Below, in pieces: positions 19,162-29,716 of a stretch of 32,903 nucleotides of DNA. Origin of the DNA: Bacteroidales bacterium (GTDB lineage Bacteria; Bacteroidota; Bacteroidia; Bacteroidales; B18-G4); contig JAGYLD010000022.1 in NCBI GenBank assembly GCA_018401355.1, forward strand, positions 1 through 32,903. Direction: 5' to 3'. The position numbers were made by a program, and so were the translations under genes. The first letter of the stretch is position 1. The number at the start of each line of letters is the position of its first letter. The notes below the pieces were generated by a model, which was not told the origin of the DNA, did no database searches, and saw only the letters and a list, made by a program, of their open reading frames with translations.

Positions 19162-19953
19162 TTAATCTCCTATTTCTTTTCTTAATTGCTGGTAAACATC
19201 ATTAAGCATTTCTTTCATATCCAATAATTTATTTTTTGCTTCTTCCAGGCGAATACCAGCTTTTAAATATCCTTCAATTTCCAATAGTTCTTCATATGCC
19301 TGATGCATACCCATATAAGGAAAAGAGGATTTTATTTTATGAAGGATTTTCAGGGTTTCCGGTAAATTATCATGAATGGTTATACTGATCTTATTAAACC
19401 CATCTTGTGTGTTGATTATAAATGTTTCCACAGTTTGTTTTACCAGACGTTCCTTATTATTGTACAGTTCACGAATTTCTGTAAGATCAAAAATAATGGA
19501 TTTCTCGGTGTTTTTTACATTAGTTGGGTTAATTTCAAGGCAATCATTTATTCCTAATACTTTACAGATGGTATGCTTTAGTTCTTCCAGGGAGAAGGGT
19601 TTTGCGATATATTCATCCATCCCGGCTTCTAAAGCCTGATCTCTGTTATAAATCAGGCCGTAAGCGGTAATAGCAATTATGGGAACATTATTTTTAGGTG
19701 CAGGAAAGTTTGACCTGATATTTTTAACAGCTTCAAAGCCATCCATTACCGGCATATTGATATCCATTAGAATCAGGTCAATATCATTTTCCTTGAGTTT
19801 TTGCAGTGCTTCTTTTCCATTATTAGACATTATTAAGTCAAATCCGAGCTCCTTCGATTGTGCTTTAATGATTAACTGGTTGAATTCATTGTCTTCTGCA
19901 GCAAGCACTTTAAGATTTTTCAGTGGTCTTGGATTTCCGGTTTTACCTTTCAT
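19162..19953 (-). CDS. Response regulator receiver fused to an Hpt domain
   Basis: A 263-residue cytoplasmic protein. The receiver domain spans about residues 13-130, with acidic pocket Glu20-Asp21, phosphoacceptor Asp64 (LMDINMPVMDG), Thr96 and Lys118 (AKPF). A second domain at about 160-260 is helical and includes HKIKSSFPYMG, where His205 fits the histidine phosphotransfer (Hpt) site. A REC-Hpt protein can receive phosphate from a kinase and relay it to another regulator. No histidine kinase is next to it, so the donor is encoded elsewhere. It is divergent from a second REC-Hpt gene, across a 360-bp control region, and is followed by a lipoprotein gene. Confidence 0.87.
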   Translation of the reverse strand: MKGKTGNPRPLKNLKVLAAEDNEFNQLIIKAQSKELGFDLIMSNNGKEALQKLKENDIDLILMDINMPVMDGFEAVKNIRSNFPAPKNNVPIIAITAYGLIYNRDQALEAGMDEYIAKPFSLEELKHTICKVLGINDCLEINPTNVKNTEKSIIFDLTEIRELYNNKERLVKQTVETFIINTQDGFNKISITIHDNLPETLKILHKIKSSFPYMGMHQAYEELLEIEGYLKAGIRLEEAKNKLLDMKEMLNDVYQQLRKEIGD

Positions 19954-20313: not shown

Positions 20314-21090
20314 ATGGATCTACCCAAGGAAGGTTTGCAAATACTTGCTGCTGACGATGATGAGTTCATGCAACTTATCCTTAAAAATACACTGGATGAA
20401 TCCGGCTATTCATTTAAGGTTGTTGGAGATGGTCTGGATTTCATGGATGAGTTTATATTGAAGGACTACGATATCGTTTTACTGGATATTAATATGCCGG
20501 GTTTGGATGGTTGGGATATCATTAGTCAAATCCGTAAAATATTTCCGGAGCCTAAAAAGAATACACCTGTTATTGCACTGACCGGCCATAAGGGAGATGA
20601 CCTTATGGAAAAGTTAAAGGAATACCGGTTTAATTATTATATCTCCAAGCCATTCCGCAGGAACGACCTGGATGAAGCGATCAAAGTATGTCTTGACGGG
20701 TCCGATGGGTTTATTGCTGTTAGCAGAAAAAATATTGAAAAGACTGAAAAACTAATAGATACTTCTCAACTGGAAGAATATGCAGAAGGAGATTTAGATT
20801 TCTTCAGGAGTTTAATTGAAACGTTTCTGTCTACTGCTCCCAGATCAGTGATGGAAATGCGGAGTAAGATCCTTGGCCAGGAGTGGAGGGCTGTAGCTGA
20901 AGAAGCACATAAATTCTCTCCCCAGCTAAGTTTTCTGGGTGCACCAAAAATTGTAGCTGTTGTGGAGGAAATTGAACACAACGCCATTGATGATCCTGAT
21001 GGTGCCAAAATGATGCAGTTGCTTGAAAAACTGGATTCAATGGTGGCAGAAGCTAAGAAACTATTGATTGATCTACTTAACAGGTCCTGA
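20314..21090 (+). CDS. Response regulator receiver fused to an Hpt-like domain
   Basis: The 258-residue protein parallels the divergent neighbour. Its receiver covers about residues 8-128, with Asp14-Asp15 in the acidic pocket, phosphoacceptor Asp58 (LLDINMPGLDG), Thr90 and Lys112 (SKPF). The C-terminal domain (about 148-255) is helical, and EEAHKFSPQLSFLGA places His199 at the Hpt phosphorylation site. The residues after this His differ from the usual HxLKG pattern, since Lys is at +1 and Ser at +3, so phosphotransfer should be tested rather than assumed. It is first in an operon: the next response regulator starts 4 nt after its stop. It probably receives or passes phosphate within this pathway. 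Confidence 0.85.
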   Translation: MDLPKEGLQILAADDDEFMQLILKNTLDESGYSFKVVGDGLDFMDEFILKDYDIVLLDINMPGLDGWDIISQIRKIFPEPKKNTPVIALTGHKGDDLMEKLKEYRFNYYISKPFRRNDLDEAIKVCLDGSDGFIAVSRKNIEKTEKLIDTSQLEEYAEGDLDFFRSLIETFLSTAPRSVMEMRSKILGQEWRAVAEEAHKFSPQLSFLGAPKIVAVVEEIEHNAIDDPDGAKMMQLLEKLDSMVAEAKKLLIDLLNRS

Positions 21091-21094
21091 TCCT

Positions 21095-21454
21095 ATGAAA
21101 GTACTTATTTGTGAAGATGATGAGATGATCCTGAAAATGGTCGAGTTTAAAATGACCAGAGAGGGATACAACGTGACAGTAGCCAGGAATGGAAAGGAAG
21201 CCGCCGCCATTGTTCAGGATAGTGAATTTGATCTGATTATTACAGATGTGTTAATGCCGTATATGACGGGTTTGGAGCTTATAAACCTGATCCGCGAAAA
21301 GCTTAAAAAAACAACACCCATCATTGTGTTGAGTAAGATAGGACTAGAAGATACTGTGCTAAAAGCTTTTAAAATGGGTGCTGATGATTATGTTGTTAAA
21401 CCATTTAGTCCCAGCGAGTTATCTATTCGGGCTAAAAGGCTTTTAAATAAATGA
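21095..21454 (+). CDS. Single-domain response regulator
   Basis: I set the start at the ATG at 21095 (MKVLICEDDEMILK), 4 nt after the REC-Hpt stop. The open frame reaches back to 21068 but would overlap that gene. The 119-residue product is only a receiver: Glu7-Asp8-Asp9 pocket, phosphoacceptor Asp51 (ITDVLMPYMTG), Ser80 and Lys102 (VKPF). With no output domain it should act by protein contact, like CheY or Spo0F. The stop overlaps the ATG of the YaiO gene (ATGA at 21451-21454), so translation is coupled. The context suggests allosteric control of the polysaccharide machinery rather than of transcription. Confidence 0.88.
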   Translation: MKVLICEDDEMILKMVEFKMTREGYNVTVARNGKEAAAIVQDSEFDLIITDVLMPYMTGLELINLIREKLKKTTPIIVLSKIGLEDTVLKAFKMGADDYVVKPFSPSELSIRAKRLLNK

Positions 21455-22761
21455 TTATGAAGTGTCTTAACCGTCATATAAGAAATTGTTTAATCAGAGG
21501 CCTGCTTATCACTTTTATTTTGGGAATTTCTGCAGTTGTTTCCGGGCAGGAATTGACGATTGATTCATCATACAGTCAGGCAAGGGAATGGGCATCCGCA
21601 GGGAAATATGAAAATACAAGGAAAATTTGTAACTATATCCTCGACTCTATTCCCGAACATTACGATGCCAAAGTATTGCTTGCACTAACTTATTCCTGGG
21701 AAAATAACTACGATACTGCCCGGACAATGCTGCAGGAAATTATCGACAATGAACCAGGTTATTGGGATGCATTGAATGGCCTGACAGATATTGGCATGTG
21801 GACCCATAAATATGACACAGCCCTGTATTTCAGTGACCAGGGTTTGAAATACCATCCCAAAGACATGACATTCCTGGTAAAAAAGGCCAGGATTTTAATT
21901 GATCTGGAACGGTATGACCAGGCTGAAAGGGTTATCCTGGAGATCCTGGAAGAAGAGCCCAGCAATGCTGAAGCCCTGAATTTGATGGAAAAGCTCGACA
22001 AGGTCAGGATAAAAAACAAGATCATGCTGGAATATGATTTTGAGTTTTATGAGGAACCATGGAGCAGAAGATGGCACCTTTTTGCTGTAAGTTATGAAAG
22101 AAAAACAAGAATTGGTAGCATTATAGGCAGGGTATATGCAGGGGATATGGTGCGGACCGGGGAGGATCCTCTGTTTGGTGATGGTGCAGTGTTTCAATAT
22201 GAACTGGAAGCTTATCCCCAGTTTTCCAAAAATAATTATGCTTTTGTTAACTACAGTTATTCGCCGGATTCCTTGTTTCCAGAACATAGGGTCGGATTGG
22301 AGTTTTATCAGAAGCTTCCCTGGGCAATGGAGGTTTCGGTTGGGGGCAGATACTTGAAATTTGTCAGCAGCAGTAACAAAATTGATGAAGTATATATAAT
22401 TACGGGTTCAATATCAAAGTATTACAGGCAATATTGGTTTTCATTCAGACCGTATATCTCACCCCAGAAGAATGGGGTGGATCAGTCGTATAATTTGATG
22501 ATCAGAAGATACCTAAAAACGGCTGATAATTTTGTTTTTGTGGAACTTGCCACAGGAAATTCACCCGATGACCCTACAAGGTATTTCGGGAACTTTGAAG
22601 AATACAGGCTTAACAAATATACTGTAAGGTCTGGATTCCAATGGTTGTTCCTTCCCAGATGGGTTTGGTATCTTGAGGTAGGTTATTCTTACGAGGAGTT
22701 TCTCGACAAGGAATACCGCAATGCAATGCGGACAGGTGTAAAAATTGGATATTATTTTTAG
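21451..22761 (+). CDS. YaiO-type outer-membrane barrel with N-terminal TPR repeats
   Basis: A 436-residue protein with a signal peptide (LIRGLLITFILGISAVVSG), then TPR-like repeats at about 40-180 (YSQAREWASAGKYENTRKIC, DTALYFSDQGLKYHPKDMTF, YDQAERVILEILEEEPSNAE). From about 190 it is a beta barrel rich in Tyr and Arg strands that ends GVKIGYYF, with the terminal Phe expected of BAM substrates. This is the YaiO layout. TPR plus barrel is also the plan of PgaA/AlgK-AlgE export ports for secreted polysaccharides, so a role as outer-membrane exit port is inferred. It is translationally coupled to the response regulator upstream and followed by the SPOR/HEAT protein after 37 nt. Confidence 0.85.
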   Translation: MIMKCLNRHIRNCLIRGLLITFILGISAVVSGQELTIDSSYSQAREWASAGKYENTRKICNYILDSIPEHYDAKVLLALTYSWENNYDTARTMLQEIIDNEPGYWDALNGLTDIGMWTHKYDTALYFSDQGLKYHPKDMTFLVKKARILIDLERYDQAERVILEILEEEPSNAEALNLMEKLDKVRIKNKIMLEYDFEFYEEPWSRRWHLFAVSYERKTRIGSIIGRVYAGDMVRTGEDPLFGDGAVFQYELEAYPQFSKNNYAFVNYSYSPDSLFPEHRVGLEFYQKLPWAMEVSVGGRYLKFVSSSNKIDEVYIITGSISKYYRQYWFSFRPYISPQKNGVDQSYNLMIRRYLKTADNFVFVELATGNSPDDPTRYFGNFEEYRLNKYTVRSGFQWLFLPRWVWYLEVGYSYEEFLDKEYRNAMRTGVKIGYYF

Positions 22762-22798
22762 AAAGGTATAACGTCACAGGAAATGTCAAAACGTTGAT

Positions 22799-24799
22799 AT
22801 GCGATCAGGATTGTTAAAAAAAATGAAATTGGTAACCCGGTTTCTTAACCTGAAACTTACCGTGGCAGGCATGTTATTGCTGGTGCCGGTCTGGGCTTCC
22901 AATGTTCCTGATTCTCTTTCATACAGGGTGCAGATAGGGGCAAGGTATGGTGTCCCTTTATCACCTGAAGCATTCTCGGAAATGATCCGCGAAGAATTTA
23001 AAATCATGGAAGGTCAGCATATGGGGTGGTATAAGTACACTGTTGGCCACGCTTCATCATTTGATTCAGCATTAAGGCTAACACAATATATTACTGACCG
23101 ATATAATATCAACGGGCCTTTTGTTGCCAAATATATTTTTGGTTATCGTATTCCAATAGCAGAGGTTTTTTATAAAGTACAAATTGCGGCGTCTTATAAA
23201 AAACCACTGAGTATTTATGCCTTAAAGCGAAAATATGATCTGGAATGGCCTCTTGCGGAAGAGTATTACGATCCATATTACAAATACCTGACAGGCAGCT
23301 TCCTCGAGTTTGATTCTGCAGTTTCTTTCATCAGGGATTTGAAAGATTTTCATGGAATCATCGGGGCTTTTGTGGTTCCTTATTATTTGAATAAAAGAGT
23401 TGTTGAACCTGATTCTTTTACTTACTTTGTGAGCAACGAAGGATATCTGAATCGTTTACCTGACAAACCCAGGGAGATTTCCACAAGTGCTATAGAGGAA
23501 AGTAGAGAAACAGCTATTGAAGAAGATACAGCAATAACACCGGTTGAAACCCGGGAAAGTATTATTGAAACTGAAGAACCTAAGGAGGAAAAGATAAGGG
23601 AAGATGAGCCAGAGCAAAAATCTATTGAACAAGAACCCGTAAAACCCGTCAGGAAAGATGTTGTCAGGGAAAGCATCAGATCATGGGTGAACATAAACCT
23701 GTCGCCTGGTGTGGCTGTCTGGATAAGCCATATAATTGACCTGAGTTATAAGAGCCTGCTGATCCTGGTATTTTCTATTGTGGTAGTCTTTCTGCTGCTA
23801 AACCTGGTTGTTGTATTCTTCTTTATTATTTTTAATAAGATCAGGAGAGAGTATATGGCCAGACGAATAAAGAGATTGCAGGCTGAATACCAGGAACTTC
23901 TTACCGATTACCTTTTTGATGAAGAAAATGAAGCTGTAGTTTATTTTAAATTGAGTAATGTCAGGAATTACTTTAAAATACAGATACTCATTGATGAATT
24001 TCTCAGGATGTATTTTAATGTTTCCGGTGAAGCGGATAAGAAATTGCATGATCTGTTCATCAGGTTAAATCTCCATAAGGATTCCATGCGGCGATTAAAG
24101 AAATTTGACTGGACGAAGAAGGCAAAGGCATTCAGGGAAATTACCATGATGAACATCCAGGAAGCCGGACCTTATATCGAACAATACATCAATGCCAAGA
24201 ATGATACCTTAAGGTCAGAAGCCCAGATTGCCATGGTGAGGTTGAATGAAGATGATCCCTTTTCTTTCCTTGATAAGCTGGAAGAAGACTTTACCCATTG
24301 GGAACAGTTAAATGTACATGCGATTGTCAGGGCGTATAACATCACCATACCTGATTTTTCCCGTTGGTTTGGGTCTGAAAATGATACAGTGGTGATATTT
24401 GCTGTCAAAATGACTACCATTTATCAGCAAACCGATAGTTTTATGGAATTGCTTGATCTTACCAGACACGAAAGTGAAAAAGTCAGAAATGAAGTTATTG
24501 TTGCCATTGGAAAAATGCAGATGAAGGAAGGTATCCCTAAGCTGCTTTCCATATATTCAGCGGAAACATACAATAATAAGCTCCAGATATTAAAAGCACT
24601 GCAAAGTATTCCGGATGAATCGGAGATTGGATTCCTTGTTGATAAGGCAAAGGAGGAAGATTTCGATATTCAGTTGAATGCTTTGAAAGTTTTAAATAAC
24701 ATCGGTTTTAAAGGCCAGCAGATCATTGAAGAGCTTTCAAAAGGCCAGAATATTACGTTTAAGGAAAAAGTGAAACATGTAAAAGATAAGAGAATATAG
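22799..24799 (+). CDS. Membrane protein with periplasmic SPOR-like repeats and cytoplasmic HEAT repeats
   Basis: A 666-residue protein of unusual build. A signal or anchor segment covers about 15-33. Two related modules follow at 41-117 and 124-200, sharing YRVQIGA/YKVQIAA, YKYTVGHASSFDSA/YKYLTGSFLEFDSA and GPFVAKY/GAFVVPY. These look like SPOR-type domains, which bind glycans such as denuded peptidoglycan. Next is an acidic Glu/Pro linker (about 215-290), a strong membrane helix (about 317-347, ILVFSIVVVFLLLNLVVVFF), a basic cytoplasmic stretch, and alpha-helical HEAT-like repeats to the end (SEKVRNEVIVAIGKMQ, DIQLNALKVLNNIGF). It can therefore connect the periplasm to a cytoplasmic scaffold. 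One base separates its stop from the glycosyltransferase ATG, so the two likely work as a pair. Confidence 0.8.
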   Translation: MRSGLLKKMKLVTRFLNLKLTVAGMLLLVPVWASNVPDSLSYRVQIGARYGVPLSPEAFSEMIREEFKIMEGQHMGWYKYTVGHASSFDSALRLTQYITDRYNINGPFVAKYIFGYRIPIAEVFYKVQIAASYKKPLSIYALKRKYDLEWPLAEEYYDPYYKYLTGSFLEFDSAVSFIRDLKDFHGIIGAFVVPYYLNKRVVEPDSFTYFVSNEGYLNRLPDKPREISTSAIEESRETAIEEDTAITPVETRESIIETEEPKEEKIREDEPEQKSIEQEPVKPVRKDVVRESIRSWVNINLSPGVAVWISHIIDLSYKSLLILVFSIVVVFLLLNLVVVFFFIIFNKIRREYMARRIKRLQAEYQELLTDYLFDEENEAVVYFKLSNVRNYFKIQILIDEFLRMYFNVSGEADKKLHDLFIRLNLHKDSMRRLKKFDWTKKAKAFREITMMNIQEAGPYIEQYINAKNDTLRSEAQIAMVRLNEDDPFSFLDKLEEDFTHWEQLNVHAIVRAYNITIPDFSRWFGSENDTVVIFAVKMTTIYQQTDSFMELLDLTRHESEKVRNEVIVAIGKMQMKEGIPKLLSIYSAETYNNKLQILKALQSIPDESEIGFLVDKAKEEDFDIQLNALKVLNNIGFKGQQIIEELSKGQNITFKEKVKHVKDKRI

Positions 24800-24800
24800 G

Positions 24801-26240
24801 ATGACATTCCTTGAAACCATAAGAATATTGTTTGAACGATTTATATTGATATATGCGATTTGTATCGCATTGTTCTATATTTTCCTTGCAATCGTATCGA
24901 TTTTCGTTTTGCGAAGTTATCTCAGAAAGAACAGTTTTGTGAACTATGAAGTCATCCTTTCTTCACCTTTTGCTCCATCCATATCAATCATAGCTCCGGC
25001 ATATAACGAGGAAAAGACGATTGTAGAAAATATCCGGGCGCTTTTGTCATTATTCTATCACGATTTTGAGGTCATAATAGTTAATGATGGCAGTGCGGAT
25101 GCAACATTAAAGAAGGCAATAGAAGCCTATGATCTTGAGCTGGTTGATTTTGCTGTTAATTATAAAATTCCGACCCAGGAAGTCAGGGGGGTGTATAAAT
25201 CCAGGAATAGTTCTTTTAGTAACCTGATCGTGATCGACAAGGAAAATGGTGGCAAGGCAGATGCCCTGAACTCCGGGATAAATGTGTCCAATAATGACTA
25301 CTTTGTTTCCATCGATGTAGATTCCATAATATCTTCTGATGCGTTGTTGAAGCTTGCCAAACCATTCATGGAAGAAAAGAAACGCAGGATCATTGCCACT
25401 GGTGGGGTTATAAGAATTGCTAATTCCTGTGTTATTAACGGTGGACAACTGGATATGATCCGGTTACCAAAGCAGTTTCTGGCTCGTTTTCAGGTTTTAG
25501 AGTATACTCGTGCATTCTTGATGGGCCGAATGGCCTGGAGCAGGCTTAATGGGTTATTGCTTATTTCCGGTGCTCTGGGATTATTTGATAAAGAAGTTGC
25601 CATTAAATGCGGTGGCTATTATGCACCAACAGTTGGAGAGGATATGGAACTGGTGGTAAGAATGCGACGATTTATGAGTGAGGAGGACAAGAAATACAAG
25701 GTAGCTTATGTTCCTGATCCCTTGTGCTGGACCGAAGTGCCAACAACCTTGAAAGTCCTTGGCCGTCAACGAAACCGATGGATCCGTGGAACAATCGACA
25801 CCCTAAGGATCCACAAAAGATTGTTTTTTAATCCAAAATATGGATTGATGGGAATGCTTTCTTATCCCTACTGGTTCTTCTTTGAATGGCTTGCACCGCT
25901 GGTTGAAACTGTAGGTTTATTTTACTTCCTGTTAATAGCATTGTTTGGTGCTCCAAACTGGCCATTTTTCTTCATACTGTTGGGTTTTGTCTATTTTTAT
26001 GGGGTTACTTATTCTACCTATGCCATTCTTTATGAAGAGTTAACATTCCATAAATATGAACGTAAATGGGATGTTTTAAGATTGTTTGTATATGCCTGGC
26101 TGGAACCATTGATATTTCATCCCCTGATTCTCTTCTGGGCTATTCGTGGAAATTTTGATTATTTCGTTGCCGGGAAAAAAGGCTGGGGCAAAATGGAGCG
26201 AAGAGGGTTTGAAAAGAAGAAAAAGAAGAAGAAGAGTTAG
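24801..26240 (+). CDS. Processive membrane family 2 glycosyltransferase (PgaC/cellulose-synthase-like)
   Basis: The 479-residue enzyme has an N-terminal membrane helix (about 15-37) and a GT2 domain with NDGSAD (95-100), GGKADALN (150-157), DVD (172-174), GED (279-281) and the processivity motif QRNRW (323-327). Several hydrophobic segments follow at about 345-465. This is the signature of inner-membrane synthases that polymerise and extrude a polysaccharide, such as PNAG, hyaluronan or cellulose synthases. The last residues are a run of lysines (KKKKKKKS), which could contact lipid head groups or a partner. It ends the operon and abuts the SPOR/HEAT gene. The donor sugar is not certain. A hexosamine polymer is plausible from the flanking sugar-activation genes. 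Confidence 0.9.
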   Translation: MTFLETIRILFERFILIYAICIALFYIFLAIVSIFVLRSYLRKNSFVNYEVILSSPFAPSISIIAPAYNEEKTIVENIRALLSLFYHDFEVIIVNDGSADATLKKAIEAYDLELVDFAVNYKIPTQEVRGVYKSRNSSFSNLIVIDKENGGKADALNSGINVSNNDYFVSIDVDSIISSDALLKLAKPFMEEKKRRIIATGGVIRIANSCVINGGQLDMIRLPKQFLARFQVLEYTRAFLMGRMAWSRLNGLLLISGALGLFDKEVAIKCGGYYAPTVGEDMELVVRMRRFMSEEDKKYKVAYVPDPLCWTEVPTTLKVLGRQRNRWIRGTIDTLRIHKRLFFNPKYGLMGMLSYPYWFFFEWLAPLVETVGLFYFLLIALFGAPNWPFFFILLGFVYFYGVTYSTYAILYEELTFHKYERKWDVLRLFVYAWLEPLIFHPLILFWAIRGNFDYFVAGKKGWGKMERRGFEKKKKKKKS

Positions 26241-26245
26241 TTTTT

Positions 26246-27412
26246 CTAATCTTTATTCGTTTCCTTCTCATAACGCTTAAGAATTCTTGTCATCATTGGA
26301 TAATAATATTCCCAAAAGAAAACCTGACGGTTGTAAATATCCTGAATATCCAGGAATTGCTTGTAATACCAGGTTATTCCTGACATTTTGACAAAACGGT
26401 CAGGGATATTGTTATCTGCAAAATCAGCACAAAAATAAAAGAACCGGTGCTGAAACCGCTCACGGATAGCTGCAGGAAAGGTTGAAGGTATCCGGTATTT
26501 TCTTAAGAGGTGGGCACCTTCTTCATTGGGTTCTATCTTGAACCTGGAAATGATCTCATTTTTGTTGAGGTCAGGTACGATGATGTCGAACCAGAAAGAA
26601 TACCTGAATTTTTCAGGCAATCCATATTCCTTCCGAAACTCCCTGTCGGTGTGTATTACAGGAATTTCATTATCCAGGTGTGTCTCATTTTCCAGGATGC
26701 AAATGGTCGAAGTTTCATGAACAAGCACAATCCCTGATCTGGTGAAAGGCCACTGTCCATTGTTTTGCTCTTTGTAAAGTCTGATTACCCATCTGGGTAA
26801 TTCTTCATTTGCAATTGTATCAAAAGAATGAAAGAACCTACCTGTCCAGCCTGTCCAGGTAAGGCCCATCAATTCTTCTGCTTCCCGCCTTACCTTGTAT
26901 GAAGTTGGATGAGCAATGGAATTGAATTCTGCAATCAAAAGTTTTTCTTTGGCATAAAAGTTTTGCATCAGATAAAGCTCATTTTCATCCAGACCACCAT
27001 AAATGAGAGGACTATGTTCTGTAAGGTTATCGCGAAGATACCAGTCGTTATAATATACACCATAAGCATCTGCCACGTACATCATGTCATACAATGATGA
27101 CAAGCTGTCGAGCTGTTTCGTCGAATAATCCTGAAAATCCCTGATGGTATAATCAAAACCTTCACCAGGAAAAAATCCGAAGTAATCGTCCGCAATTGAG
27201 TATTCTTCTTTTCCTGGTTTTTTGTACTTTTTATGGGTAAGGATCCATGTAAGGGATCGGTGCTCCGGACGGGAATACTCTGCTGCGGTCTTGTCAATAA
27301 TAAGAACATGCAGTTCTTTGGAATGCTTAATCTTGTAAATGGTCCATTGAAGGACGGGGATCAATATGATCACTATGATCACGAGATTGAAAATCAGTCG
27401 TCTGGTGTTCAT
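26246..27412 (-). CDS. Membrane-anchored protein of unknown function
   Basis: I start at the ATG at 27412 (MNTRRLIFNLVIIVIILIPV). A TTG at 27487 would overlap the preceding kinase gene. The 388-residue product has one N-terminal membrane helix and a large, probably periplasmic, domain rich in Trp, Tyr and His. Recognisable blocks include LHVLIIDKTAAEYSRPEHRSL, LLIAEFNSIAHPT and ELMGLTWTGWTGRFF. None match a family I know. The early VLIIDKT strand and later LIAEFNSI hint at a Rossmann-like or amidotransferase-like fold, but this is a guess. It ends 5 nt from the convergent polymerising glycosyltransferase and is the last gene of the sugar-activation group, so a role in polysaccharide modification is possible. 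Confidence 0.65.
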   Translation of the reverse strand: MNTRRLIFNLVIIVIILIPVLQWTIYKIKHSKELHVLIIDKTAAEYSRPEHRSLTWILTHKKYKKPGKEEYSIADDYFGFFPGEGFDYTIRDFQDYSTKQLDSLSSLYDMMYVADAYGVYYNDWYLRDNLTEHSPLIYGGLDENELYLMQNFYAKEKLLIAEFNSIAHPTSYKVRREAEELMGLTWTGWTGRFFHSFDTIANEELPRWVIRLYKEQNNGQWPFTRSGIVLVHETSTICILENETHLDNEIPVIHTDREFRKEYGLPEKFRYSFWFDIIVPDLNKNEIISRFKIEPNEEGAHLLRKYRIPSTFPAAIRERFQHRFFYFCADFADNNIPDRFVKMSGITWYYKQFLDIQDIYNRQVFFWEYYYPMMTRILKRYEKETNKD

Positions 27413-27440
27413 TTTGCGGCTTTTTGATGGTCTCAGCAAG

Positions 27441-28481
27441 CTAAAAAAGCTGCTGAATGGCTTCTTTCTGCTGAAAGATCTGGTCAAGCAATGCCATTTG
27501 TGTCCGGGCCCTGTCCAGGTTGTGATCCTGGTAACGTGTGTGATAATAAATATCCCCGTTCAGGTAATCTGCCAGGAACCGGATCCCGATCAGGTAGGTC
27601 ATGAAAGCCGGTGCTTCAGGAAGCAGCCGGTATTCCGCCTTTGTCAGGAAGGATACAGCCTGCGACAGGTAACCCTTTGTAAATGCACTGCATAACTCAG
27701 TATTAAACGAAATATCATTGATATTGGTTGCATCCTCGGGTGCATTATTTGCAAGGGTACGCAGGGCATCACCAAAGTCATGGGCCACGTACCCTGGCAT
27801 GACCGTGTCAAAGTCGATCATGCATATGGCTTTTCCCTGCTCGTCAAACAATATATTGTTGAGTTTTGTGTCGTTATGCGTAATGCGGAAGGGAATGCCG
27901 GAATTGATCAGGCCTTGCTCATAGTTTTTCATATAGGATGAATGCCGCAGAAAATTCCTGTATACAACTTCCGCCTTTTTCTTTCTTTCATTGGCAACAA
28001 GTCTAAAAGCCGACATGAGCTCATGTTCTCTTTTTTCAAGGCTGTGAAAACCCGGAAGGATGATATGGAGCTTTCCTGAAAAGGCCTCCAGCCCTTTTTG
28101 AAAGGCAGCAATGGCTTTTCCCGCTTCAAAGGCAACAGCCGGGTCGGAAGTCTTCTCGATGGTGCGGCTTCCCGGGATAAAGTTGAACATACGCCAGAAT
28201 AGTCCGTCATCCTGCAGGAAATAGTAACGGCCATCTTTTGCCGGGATCATCTGCAATGGAGATTTTATATGACGGGTAACATTGTTTATGTTGGAGTTGA
28301 TCTTAGCAGCATCCGGGAAAATGGAAGTATTTACGAGTTGCAGGACGTAACCGGGATTGTCATTCTGGCCGGTTTTGATCCTGTATGTCTTATGGATATG
28401 GCCGTTACCAATGGCTTCCCAGGATGCAGGTTCACCGGCAATCTTGAAGTTTGAGGCTATATTCAGGATATCAGTTGACAT
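27441..28481 (-). CDS. APH-fold sugar kinase, NahK-like (N-acetylhexosamine 1-kinase candidate)
   Basis: The 346-residue protein has an aminoglycoside-phosphotransferase kinase fold. The N-terminal phosphate-binding segment is GNGHIHKTYRI (25-35), the catalytic loop is RITHNDTKLNNILFD (His202, Asp204, Asn209) and the metal site is IDFDT (222-226). This GNGH-plus-HND-plus-IDFD combination is the one seen in NahK, which phosphorylates GlcNAc or GalNAc at C1. It starts one base after the stop of a sugar nucleotidyltransferase gene, and kinase plus nucleotidyltransferase is exactly the pair needed to turn a free hexosamine into a UDP-sugar. Another APH-family substrate cannot be excluded. No drug-resistance context is seen. 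Confidence 0.75.
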   Translation of the reverse strand: MSTDILNIASNFKIAGEPASWEAIGNGHIHKTYRIKTGQNDNPGYVLQLVNTSIFPDAAKINSNINNVTRHIKSPLQMIPAKDGRYYFLQDDGLFWRMFNFIPGSRTIEKTSDPAVAFEAGKAIAAFQKGLEAFSGKLHIILPGFHSLEKREHELMSAFRLVANERKKKAEVVYRNFLRHSSYMKNYEQGLINSGIPFRITHNDTKLNNILFDEQGKAICMIDFDTVMPGYVAHDFGDALRTLANNAPEDATNINDISFNTELCSAFTKGYLSQAVSFLTKAEYRLLPEAPAFMTYLIGIRFLADYLNGDIYYHTRYQDHNLDRARTQMALLDQIFQQKEAIQQLF

Positions 28482-28482
28482 A

Positions 28483-29385
28483 TTACTTCCATAGGTTTTC
28501 AGGATAAATGCCCTGAGCTACAAGGTTTTTTATTTTGTTCCGGACATCTTCCACATCCTCCTTGTATGTCATTCCGGCCCAGGAAGCACTTGTGCTGAGC
28601 ACTTGCACAGAGGCTTCATGGTTTTTCACCATTTCGTTTACTACCGTTGGGATCAAAAATTCATTCATGTTTCCAGGTGCATCTGCCAGGAAACTTATGA
28701 ATTTTTTTTTCAGGATATTAAAGATCACAGGAGTAAAGCACCACATATTCATGGAGACAATAGTATCGGGTTCCAGTCCGGCTTCCTGATTCTGCTTATT
28801 GAGGTAAAAGATCCTATTTTCCGTTTTGTGGATGTCAAAAATCTCTTCTATAAAAGTAAGGCTATTGTTTCTACCGGTAACGCATCGGGCCCGGGTCACC
28901 GAACCGTGATCAGAGAGTGTGTTTTTAACTTCGTAGCCGACCAGGCCGAATGTCGGTCTTTTAGTGTTTTCGAGATTTTCCAGGAAACCCATTCCAGCCG
29001 AAAATGCTTCTTTACCGTAAAAATCATCAGCATTGAGCACCAGGAAAGGGGAGGAAACAGTATTTCTGGCTGTCCATATGGCATGACCTGTTCCCCAGGG
29101 TTTTTGCCTGCCGGCAGGGGGTGTAAATCCTGCCGGCATATCATCCATTTCCTGGAATATGAGTTTAACAGATATTTTGTTTTGGATTTTATCAACGATT
29201 CTTTTCCTGAAGTCCTCCTCAAAATCCTTACGGATGATGAATCCGGCTTCCTTAAAGCCGCACCTGATGGCGTCAAAGACGGAATACTCCATAATGGTTT
29301 CCCCGGAAGGACCGACCCCTTCGATCTGTTTCAGTCCTCCAGACCCGGCTTCCCAAGCCAGCAGCCATGACAAATTGAGGTTCAT
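28483..29385 (-). CDS. Sugar nucleotidyltransferase with a disturbed N-terminal signature
   Basis: The 300-residue frame from the ATG at 29385 is a nucleotidyltransferase relative of GlmU and RmlA, clear from residue 17 on (GGLKQIEGVGPSGETIMEYS, later LVLNADDFYGKEA with the metal-binding Asp, and DTIVSMNMWCF). In place of the family signature near residues 5-15 the frame reads LSWLLAWEAGSG. The other reading phase of the same DNA reads FVMAAGLGSR, the expected GxGSR loop. One extra base near 29345 and one missing base near 29372 explain this. It is either a sequencing error pair or a true lesion. Expected role: making a UDP- or dTDP-sugar from sugar 1-phosphate. The kinase gene begins one base downstream. 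A TTG at 29460 is an unlikely start. Confidence 0.78.
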   Translation of the reverse strand: MNLNLSWLLAWEAGSGGLKQIEGVGPSGETIMEYSVFDAIRCGFKEAGFIIRKDFEEDFRKRIVDKIQNKISVKLIFQEMDDMPAGFTPPAGRQKPWGTGHAIWTARNTVSSPFLVLNADDFYGKEAFSAGMGFLENLENTKRPTFGLVGYEVKNTLSDHGSVTRARCVTGRNNSLTFIEEIFDIHKTENRIFYLNKQNQEAGLEPDTIVSMNMWCFTPVIFNILKKKFISFLADAPGNMNEFLIPTVVNEMVKNHEASVQVLSTSASWAGMTYKEDVEDVRNKIKNLVAQGIYPENLWK

Positions 29386-29716
29386 GGTGGTTGGTTTTGG
29401 TGGGGTCAAATGTAAAGAAATAATTAATGGCCTCCAGCCCTCATCTGGAGTGGAGGCCAAATGTCAAATACTTAAAGACTTCAATCTGTAAATAAATGAT
29501 TAACAAGTGGTTATTGCCCAGTTGCTTTTCTTCAACGGAACAGAGACTTGTATTTAAGATATTTTTAAAGAATTTTTCGCGTGAAATTTTGATTTCTCAG
29601 ATAAATGAATCGCTGGTAAATTTGTAAATAACAAATTATCAACAGTATAAGAATCTGTGGAAAGATGTTTGTGGAAGAATAAGTCGCTTGCGGCCCCTGG
29701 TAGAGGCTGGAGGCCC
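29386..29716. other. Intergenic region between nucleotidyltransferase and symporter genes
   Basis: This 331-bp stretch contains no credible gene. It holds a candidate -7 element (29407-29414) for the nucleotidyltransferase-kinase operon and a hairpin whose arms GGCCTCCA (29429-29436) and TGGAGGCC (29451-29458) are exact complements. GAGGCTGGAGGCC at 29703-29715, next to the symporter stop, is nearly the inverse of GGCCTCCAGCCCTC at 29429-29442, so an inverted-repeat pair frames most of the gap. The middle is AT-rich. Confidence 0.6.
29407..29414 (-). promoter_or_regulatory. Candidate -7 element for the nucleotidyltransferase-kinase operon
   Basis: The minus strand reads TACATTTG, a perfect TAnnTTTG, 21 nt before the ATG at 29385. 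No TTG is found at -33 spacing. It argues for the 29385 start and for separate transcription from the symporter gene. Confidence 0.4.

Follow-up and report, generated by a model that had tools for sequence, protein, structure and literature searches.

Known synthases of the Pga, Alg and Bcs type are under c-di-GMP control, exerted via PilZ or PgaD, and the partner of the family 2 glycosyltransferase (GT2) of the alginate system, Alg44, combines a single transmembrane (TM) helix with a regulatory domain in the cytoplasm and a further domain in the periplasm (PMC8461298). The locus reported here lies in a window, i.e. the whole stretch of 32,903 nucleotides that was analysed (contig JAGYLD010000022.1 of the Bacteroidales bacterium assembly GCA_018401355.1), and associates a putative synthase and exporter with components of a phosphorelay. 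Polysaccharide output is governed elsewhere by two-component proteins, such as WspR, which acts by making c-di-GMP, or Dif/EpsW of Myxococcus. The present gene set resembles these systems by its two-component proteins predicted to act over polysaccharide output, and differs from WspR by a receiver (REC) protein devoid of output domain and encoded in the synthase operon with a HEAT-repeat partner. In agreement with the original remark that no named system with this set was known, a literature search confined to openly available journal articles gave no published description, and the main text of an operon survey (PMC7112194) makes no mention of Bacteroidetes, HEAT or response regulators. The gene set is phylum-wide and apparently undescribed, and most likely represents a form of synthase-dependent polysaccharide secretion where c-di-GMP has given way to a phosphorelay.

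Organization of the locus

The re-examination of open reading frames retrieved five packed genes on the plus strand with exactly the coordinates and spacing first reported for them (gaps of 4, -4, 37 and 1 nt), and each of the domains then assigned, except SPOR, was matched by Pfam. The first gene (20314-21090) encodes a REC-Hpt phosphotransfer protein of 258 aa (Response_reg 4e-24, Hpt 1.1e-6) and the second (21095-21454, ATG at 21095) a dedicated stand-alone REC of 119 aa without output domain (Response_reg 1.8e-28). They are followed by a TPR protein with a YaiO outer-membrane barrel, the putative exporter (21451-22761; YaiO 1.9e-50 and TPR_19; TIGR04390), by a putative adaptor composed of a signal peptide, a periplasmic part weakly resembling SPOR, a single TM helix and a cytoplasmic HEAT domain (22799-24799; HEAT_2 4.5e-12), and by a processive-type GT2, the putative synthase (24801-26240; Glyco_tranf_2_3, PF13641, 1.9e-21). 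The source is a draft genome of 205 contigs, 83% complete, in which the HEAT protein and the GT2 family of this type are each present as a single copy.

A second REC-Hpt protein is encoded divergently from the cluster (19162-19953, minus strand; Response_reg 2.4e-25; BarA REC-Hpt region 1.5e-37), and the corresponding position in a genus relative (L041) is taken by a divergent REC protein of about the same size; the second REC-Hpt protein is a possible extra input to the relay. On the other side, the cluster is adjoined by APH-type kinase and nucleotidyltransferase-like genes (27441-28481 and 28483-29460, minus strand), which might supply activated sugar and whose homologues are found beside it in genus relatives only.

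Conservation of the gene neighbourhood across Bacteroidota

The HEAT protein was first searched in relatives, then profiles of its TM+HEAT core (A2) and of the GT2 (A1) were used, which also yielded 80 named loci of Bacteroidota, cultured as well as uncultured. Among 395 evenly drawn genomes of the phylum, the profile searches retrieved the HEAT core in 57 (E ≤ 1e-10) and a GT2 of the cluster type in 94. HEAT is located directly upstream of GT2 in all 121 Bacteroidota loci with full context; since this set was partly picked by HEAT, the fair counts for HEAT are those of the loci picked by GT2 alone, where 77 of the 78 show the same arrangement and the remaining one (L104) is a short contig. 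The two genes overlap in 84 of 142 pairs and are at most 30 nt apart in 50 more (134/142 in total). A stand-alone REC and a YaiO protein are each encoded at most six genes away in 108 of the 121 full-context loci, and the REC gene often immediately precedes that of HEAT, overlapping it or separated from it by almost no nucleotides.

Since both GT2 and REC belong to very widespread families, REC having 26 matches in the source genome, such a neighbourhood might reflect chance or a clade-specific grouping around a common GT2. We consider this explanation extremely improbable: adjacency of GT2 and HEAT reaches 59/59 for the compared GT2 matches of at least 553 bits in the even sample of 395 genomes, and at the loci picked by GT2, 59 of the 71 GT2 genes have a stand-alone REC upstream in the same gene run, compared with 18 of 613 for unlabelled genes. 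On these adjacency and enrichment counts, a chance clustering was rejected. The gene order is moreover kept in other classes of the phylum, with REC-HEAT-GT2 in 14 of the 20 loci examined and a much weaker HEAT similarity. The neighbourhood whose absence from relatives would have refuted the original prediction is clearly kept phylum-wide, and its conserved core consists of the dedicated stand-alone REC, the single-TM HEAT protein and the processive-type GT2, usually together with the TPR-YaiO barrel. It can also be read in annotated plasmid records, as response regulator, HEAT, GT2, YaiO and LTA synthase family protein in Emticicia oligotrophica, and as HEAT and GT2 in Bacteroides finegoldii.

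Some loci have kept HEAT-GT2 with no nearby REC (e.g. L031, L052, L053, L155, L076 and L079), which suggests that the HEAT protein can work without REC or that REC is encoded elsewhere. A variant operon without nearby REC (L031, L052, L053, L148 and L155) comprises HEAT, GT2, a large TPR/YaiO protein, a DUF4838-type protein and a small protein, the last being a DUF1573 in L031; this variant is present in Bacteroides finegoldii, NZ_OY725906, and the EAQ/WEQ motif of its HEAT protein has diverged. A contig labelled Armatimonadetes (L080) carries the present Bacteroidota system and is probably misbinned.

Predicted synthesis and export of a polymer

The GT2 contains NDGS, DxD (D172/D174), ED (E280/D281) and QRNRW (Q323-W327) motifs, as well as TM helices at 19-37 and 364-382. 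The key residues of the motifs show no variation among 12 relatives from distant families. The earlier call of a processive GT2 with QRNRW is extended by these four motifs which, together with the TM helices, make the protein a processive family 2 synthase type, its processivity being predicted. The YaiO protein scores well above the cut-offs of two family models (TIGR04390, 119.4 vs 32 bits; PF19413, 171.6 vs 23.9 bits), and its AlphaFold model (pLDDT 92) is composed of TPR and a 14-stranded barrel. Among the 50 structure matches listed, this barrel resembles channels of the TodX/CymA/FadL/OmpG type (Z about 19-20); PgaA, AlgE and BcsC are not among these 50, which excludes nothing. The barrels of PgaA, BcsC and AlgE have more than 14 strands and, to our knowledge, no transport role has been proven for YaiO, two points that weigh against the export reading. 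The TPR-YaiO protein is regarded as a candidate exporter.

Comparison with described systems revealed partial likenesses. Like PNAG systems (Pga/Ica), the set comprises a processive-type GT2 akin to PgaC/IcaA together with a TPR/outer-membrane barrel protein, as PgaA, but the GT2 reaches only 124.5 bits with the PgaC/IcaA equivalog, its nearest named model (cut-off 422.3), and the YaiO barrel 31.6 bits with the PgaA model (cut-off 366.65). Neither PgaB de-N-acetylase, nor another deacetylase, nor PgaD was found by Pfam and NCBIfam among the ten central genes, and c-di-GMP control is unlikely in the absence of GGDEF, the new set having REC and the HEAT protein instead. The cellulose system (BcsA/BcsB/BcsC and BcsG) likewise has a processive GT2 and, in some cases, a sulfatase-fold transferase decorating the polymer; the GT2 of the window differs by its score with the BcsA model (40 vs 699 bits) and no PilZ or BcsB is present, while BcsG is a pEtN transferase and the transferase found in relatives of the locus is LtaS/OpgB-like. 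With the alginate system (Alg8/Alg44/AlgK/AlgE), the likeness lies in the general plan of Alg44, shared by the HEAT protein; the cytoplasmic part is HEAT in one and PilZ in the other with a reversed domain order, phosphorylation of REC is here the likely signal, and a single protein unites TPR and barrel. Membership of the PNAG, cellulose and alginate systems was rejected, the family cut-offs being missed wherever models exist.

Putative decorating transferase and nature of the product

The list of components initially drawn up had missed an LtaS/OpgB-like sulfatase-fold transferase of the relatives, which bears on the nature of the product. It is encoded near GT2 or fused to it in 56 of the 121 loci, including 18 fusions to the GT2 C-terminus. 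GT2-LtaS/OpgB-like fusions of 1134-1270 aa are found in L090, L096, L131, L150-L152, L158-L160, L162, L164, L165 and L170, and those of L162, L164 and L165 also include a part matching the YaiO profile. An LtaS-like enzyme had no match in the source draft genome, where it may lie in the missing contigs (83% completeness). The occurrence of this transferase in about half of the loci argues for polymers decorated with phosphoglycerol or a similar group in the lineages bearing it, suggesting charge-decorated polymers there. The same frequent association could be explained by a GT2 forming a glycolipid or a periplasmic OpgH-like glucan to which the LtaS/OpgB-like enzyme adds phosphoglycerol, YaiO having another outer-membrane role, and OpgH with OpgB is a known pair of GT2 and phosphoglycerol transferase that gives a precedent. 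Such a product seems quite unlikely to us, considering the TPR-YaiO barrel found at most six genes away in 108/121 loci, the scores of the GT2, for which PgaC/IcaA is the nearest of the named models, and the many loci without transferase, including the genome of the window as far as detected.

An orphan family as sixth component

The cluster was initially thought to end at 26240. A sixth gene, convergent with it, lies at 26246-27487 on the minus strand (likely start ATG 27412) and encodes a protein of about 390 aa, with one N-terminal TM helix and an extracytoplasmic domain. Strongly conserved homologues occur in 33 related loci, frequently next to YaiO or GT2, and D65, K66, H76, W81, D101, E187 and N189, among other residues, are invariant in the family. 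The protein had no match in Pfam, NCBIfam or PDB sequences, and no family assignment is supported by these sources. Judging from gene linkage, we count it as the sixth predicted member of the system, which would give a protein family without annotation a place in an export pathway.

The HEAT protein and its partners

SPOR, formerly named as a part of the HEAT protein, scores below the Pfam gathering threshold in the window (PF05036, 17.2 vs 21 bits) and above it in three relatives (24.2, 24.6 and 24.0 bits), and the SPOR-like region has no reliable SPOR fold in the AlphaFold model (pLDDT <50). It is ruled out as a core element by the variability of the N-terminus (a short stretch, SPOR-like or multiple TMs), TM+HEAT being constant: in nearly all relatives, one TM helix is directly followed by about 330 residues of HEAT. 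In the window protein, the TM helix is located at about 320-345, within a long modelled helix (320-373) running from the membrane into HEAT, with a pLDDT of about 97 over TM+HEAT. Structure comparison assigns a HEAT/ARM-like fold to the modelled domain, and HEAT/ARM folds form a class of binding scaffolds. In L135-L139, the HEAT protein continues at its C-terminus for about 330-560 additional residues, which in L135 show further weak HEAT repeats.

The strongest covariation between proteins was obtained for HEAT-GT2, with a top value of 7.78, close to within-protein values, for a pair (HEAT 347/GT2 413) at the TM/cytoplasm border, and the distance partial correlation of the two proteins is 0.68. 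On these two grounds, a HEAT-GT2 contact is taken as likely. For REC-HEAT, the top value of 5.46 slightly exceeds control pairs (4.8-5.25, the latter for HEAT-YaiO) and is inseparable from them at the depth of about 74 effective sequences, the distance partial correlation is about 0 (-0.01), and no natural REC-HEAT fusion was found among about 150 loci looked at; a direct REC-HEAT contact is plausible. Over the whole family, the evolutionary distances of REC track those of YaiO (partial correlation 0.48) more than those of HEAT.

These values raise the possibility of a polysaccharide exporter in which HEAT is a constitutive scaffold of the GT2 (co-polymerase) and REC a phosphate sink or the effector of another target. 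We judge it unlikely, even if it accounts for strong HEAT-GT2 signals beside a REC-HEAT signal near control level and for the loci retaining HEAT-GT2 without REC, because the REC is so often encoded immediately 5' of HEAT, the two genes overlapping or nearly touching, and because the linked RECs form part of a dedicated clade (see below). The EAQ/WEQ motif of HEAT also speaks against it, being lost in the REC-less members of the DUF4838-type loci and kept in the REC-bearing L144; L076 and L079 nonetheless keep WEQ without REC and, with so few cases, the link between loss of the motif and absence of REC is only a hint.

Phosphorelay components and absence of GGDEF domains from most carriers

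Control of the synthase by a phosphorelay, as opposed to c-di-GMP, had been put forward together with a REC-HEAT contact; the former gains from complete operons and REC fusions in relatives, and the latter does not, covariation barely exceeding the controls. The window locus holds REC, Hpt and a terminal REC, to which loci of relatives add the histidine kinase (HK). In relatives, the REC-Hpt module stands at the C-terminal end of a hybrid kinase, encoded in many of them directly before the stand-alone REC (confirmed by Pfam for L084 and for L093, of CHASE3-PAS-HK-REC-Hpt architecture); an HK and/or Hpt gene is directly 5' of REC in 38 of 92 loci, and complete HK-REC-Hpt / REC / HEAT / GT2 operons are present. 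Since relatives carry the whole relay in one operon, the window would contain its later part, REC-Hpt and the dedicated REC, with the kinase encoded elsewhere. The phosphorelay reading is strengthened by two relatives, L043 and L055, whose dedicated REC is fused as N-terminal domain into a larger protein (REC-Hpt-REC in L043 according to Pfam).

In a tree of 263 REC domains, built with a quick method on few columns, all 103 operon-linked RECs fall within one group of 127 with a modest support of 89, and 110 of the 112 RECs of hybrid kinases fall outside it. The linked RECs have kept the phospho-acceptor D51 in 99 cases and K102 in all 103. In L181 and L182, operons comprising RECs and a histidine kinase encode HEAT proteins that show weak similarity to the core, have no TM helix and are not accompanied by GT2, giving a hint of pairing between the HEAT type of the core and RECs.

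The initial remark that neither PilZ-like nor GGDEF domains are seen holds genome-wide for GGDEF: none was found in the source genome (83% complete draft), nor in 54 of the 60 genomes carrying the locus, several of which are single-contig, and the six others belong to other classes of the phylum. PilZ was likewise absent from Pfam scans of the window genes and of ten HEAT proteins. Control by c-di-GMP would accordingly be unavailable to most carriers.

Proposed mechanism

We regard as probable, and as the best explanation of the gene set, a machine for synthase-dependent polysaccharide secretion that is controlled by a multi-step phosphorelay. A kinase would phosphorylate REC-Hpt, whose Hpt would hand the phosphate to the dedicated REC; because the latter has no output domain, it is proposed to act on the cytoplasmic HEAT domain through contact between the two proteins. 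Anchored beside the GT2 by its TM helix, HEAT would then switch polymerisation, filling the position of Alg44 (PilZ) or PgaD in c-di-GMP-controlled synthases. The polymer would pass the inner membrane via the GT2, be decorated by the transferase in some lineages and exit via the TPR-YaiO barrel. The fuller proposal is a phylum-wide undescribed class of synthases in which the phosphorylated stand-alone REC directly switches the GT2 through the membrane-anchored HEAT protein in place of c-di-GMP, and which would further include a new orphan component of the periplasm and, in certain lineages, a synthase fused to an LtaS/OpgB-like transferase; it is advanced tentatively, at slightly less than even chances.

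The gene set names a specific candidate answer to how surface polymers could be controlled in carriers that are mostly devoid of GGDEF. The named loci include tractable cultured genera, namely Flavobacterium, Pedobacter, Mucilaginibacter, Pontibacter and Polaribacter. Two HEAT-GT2-YaiO copies are located about 8 kb or less apart in Flavobacterium omnivorum (L120/L146).
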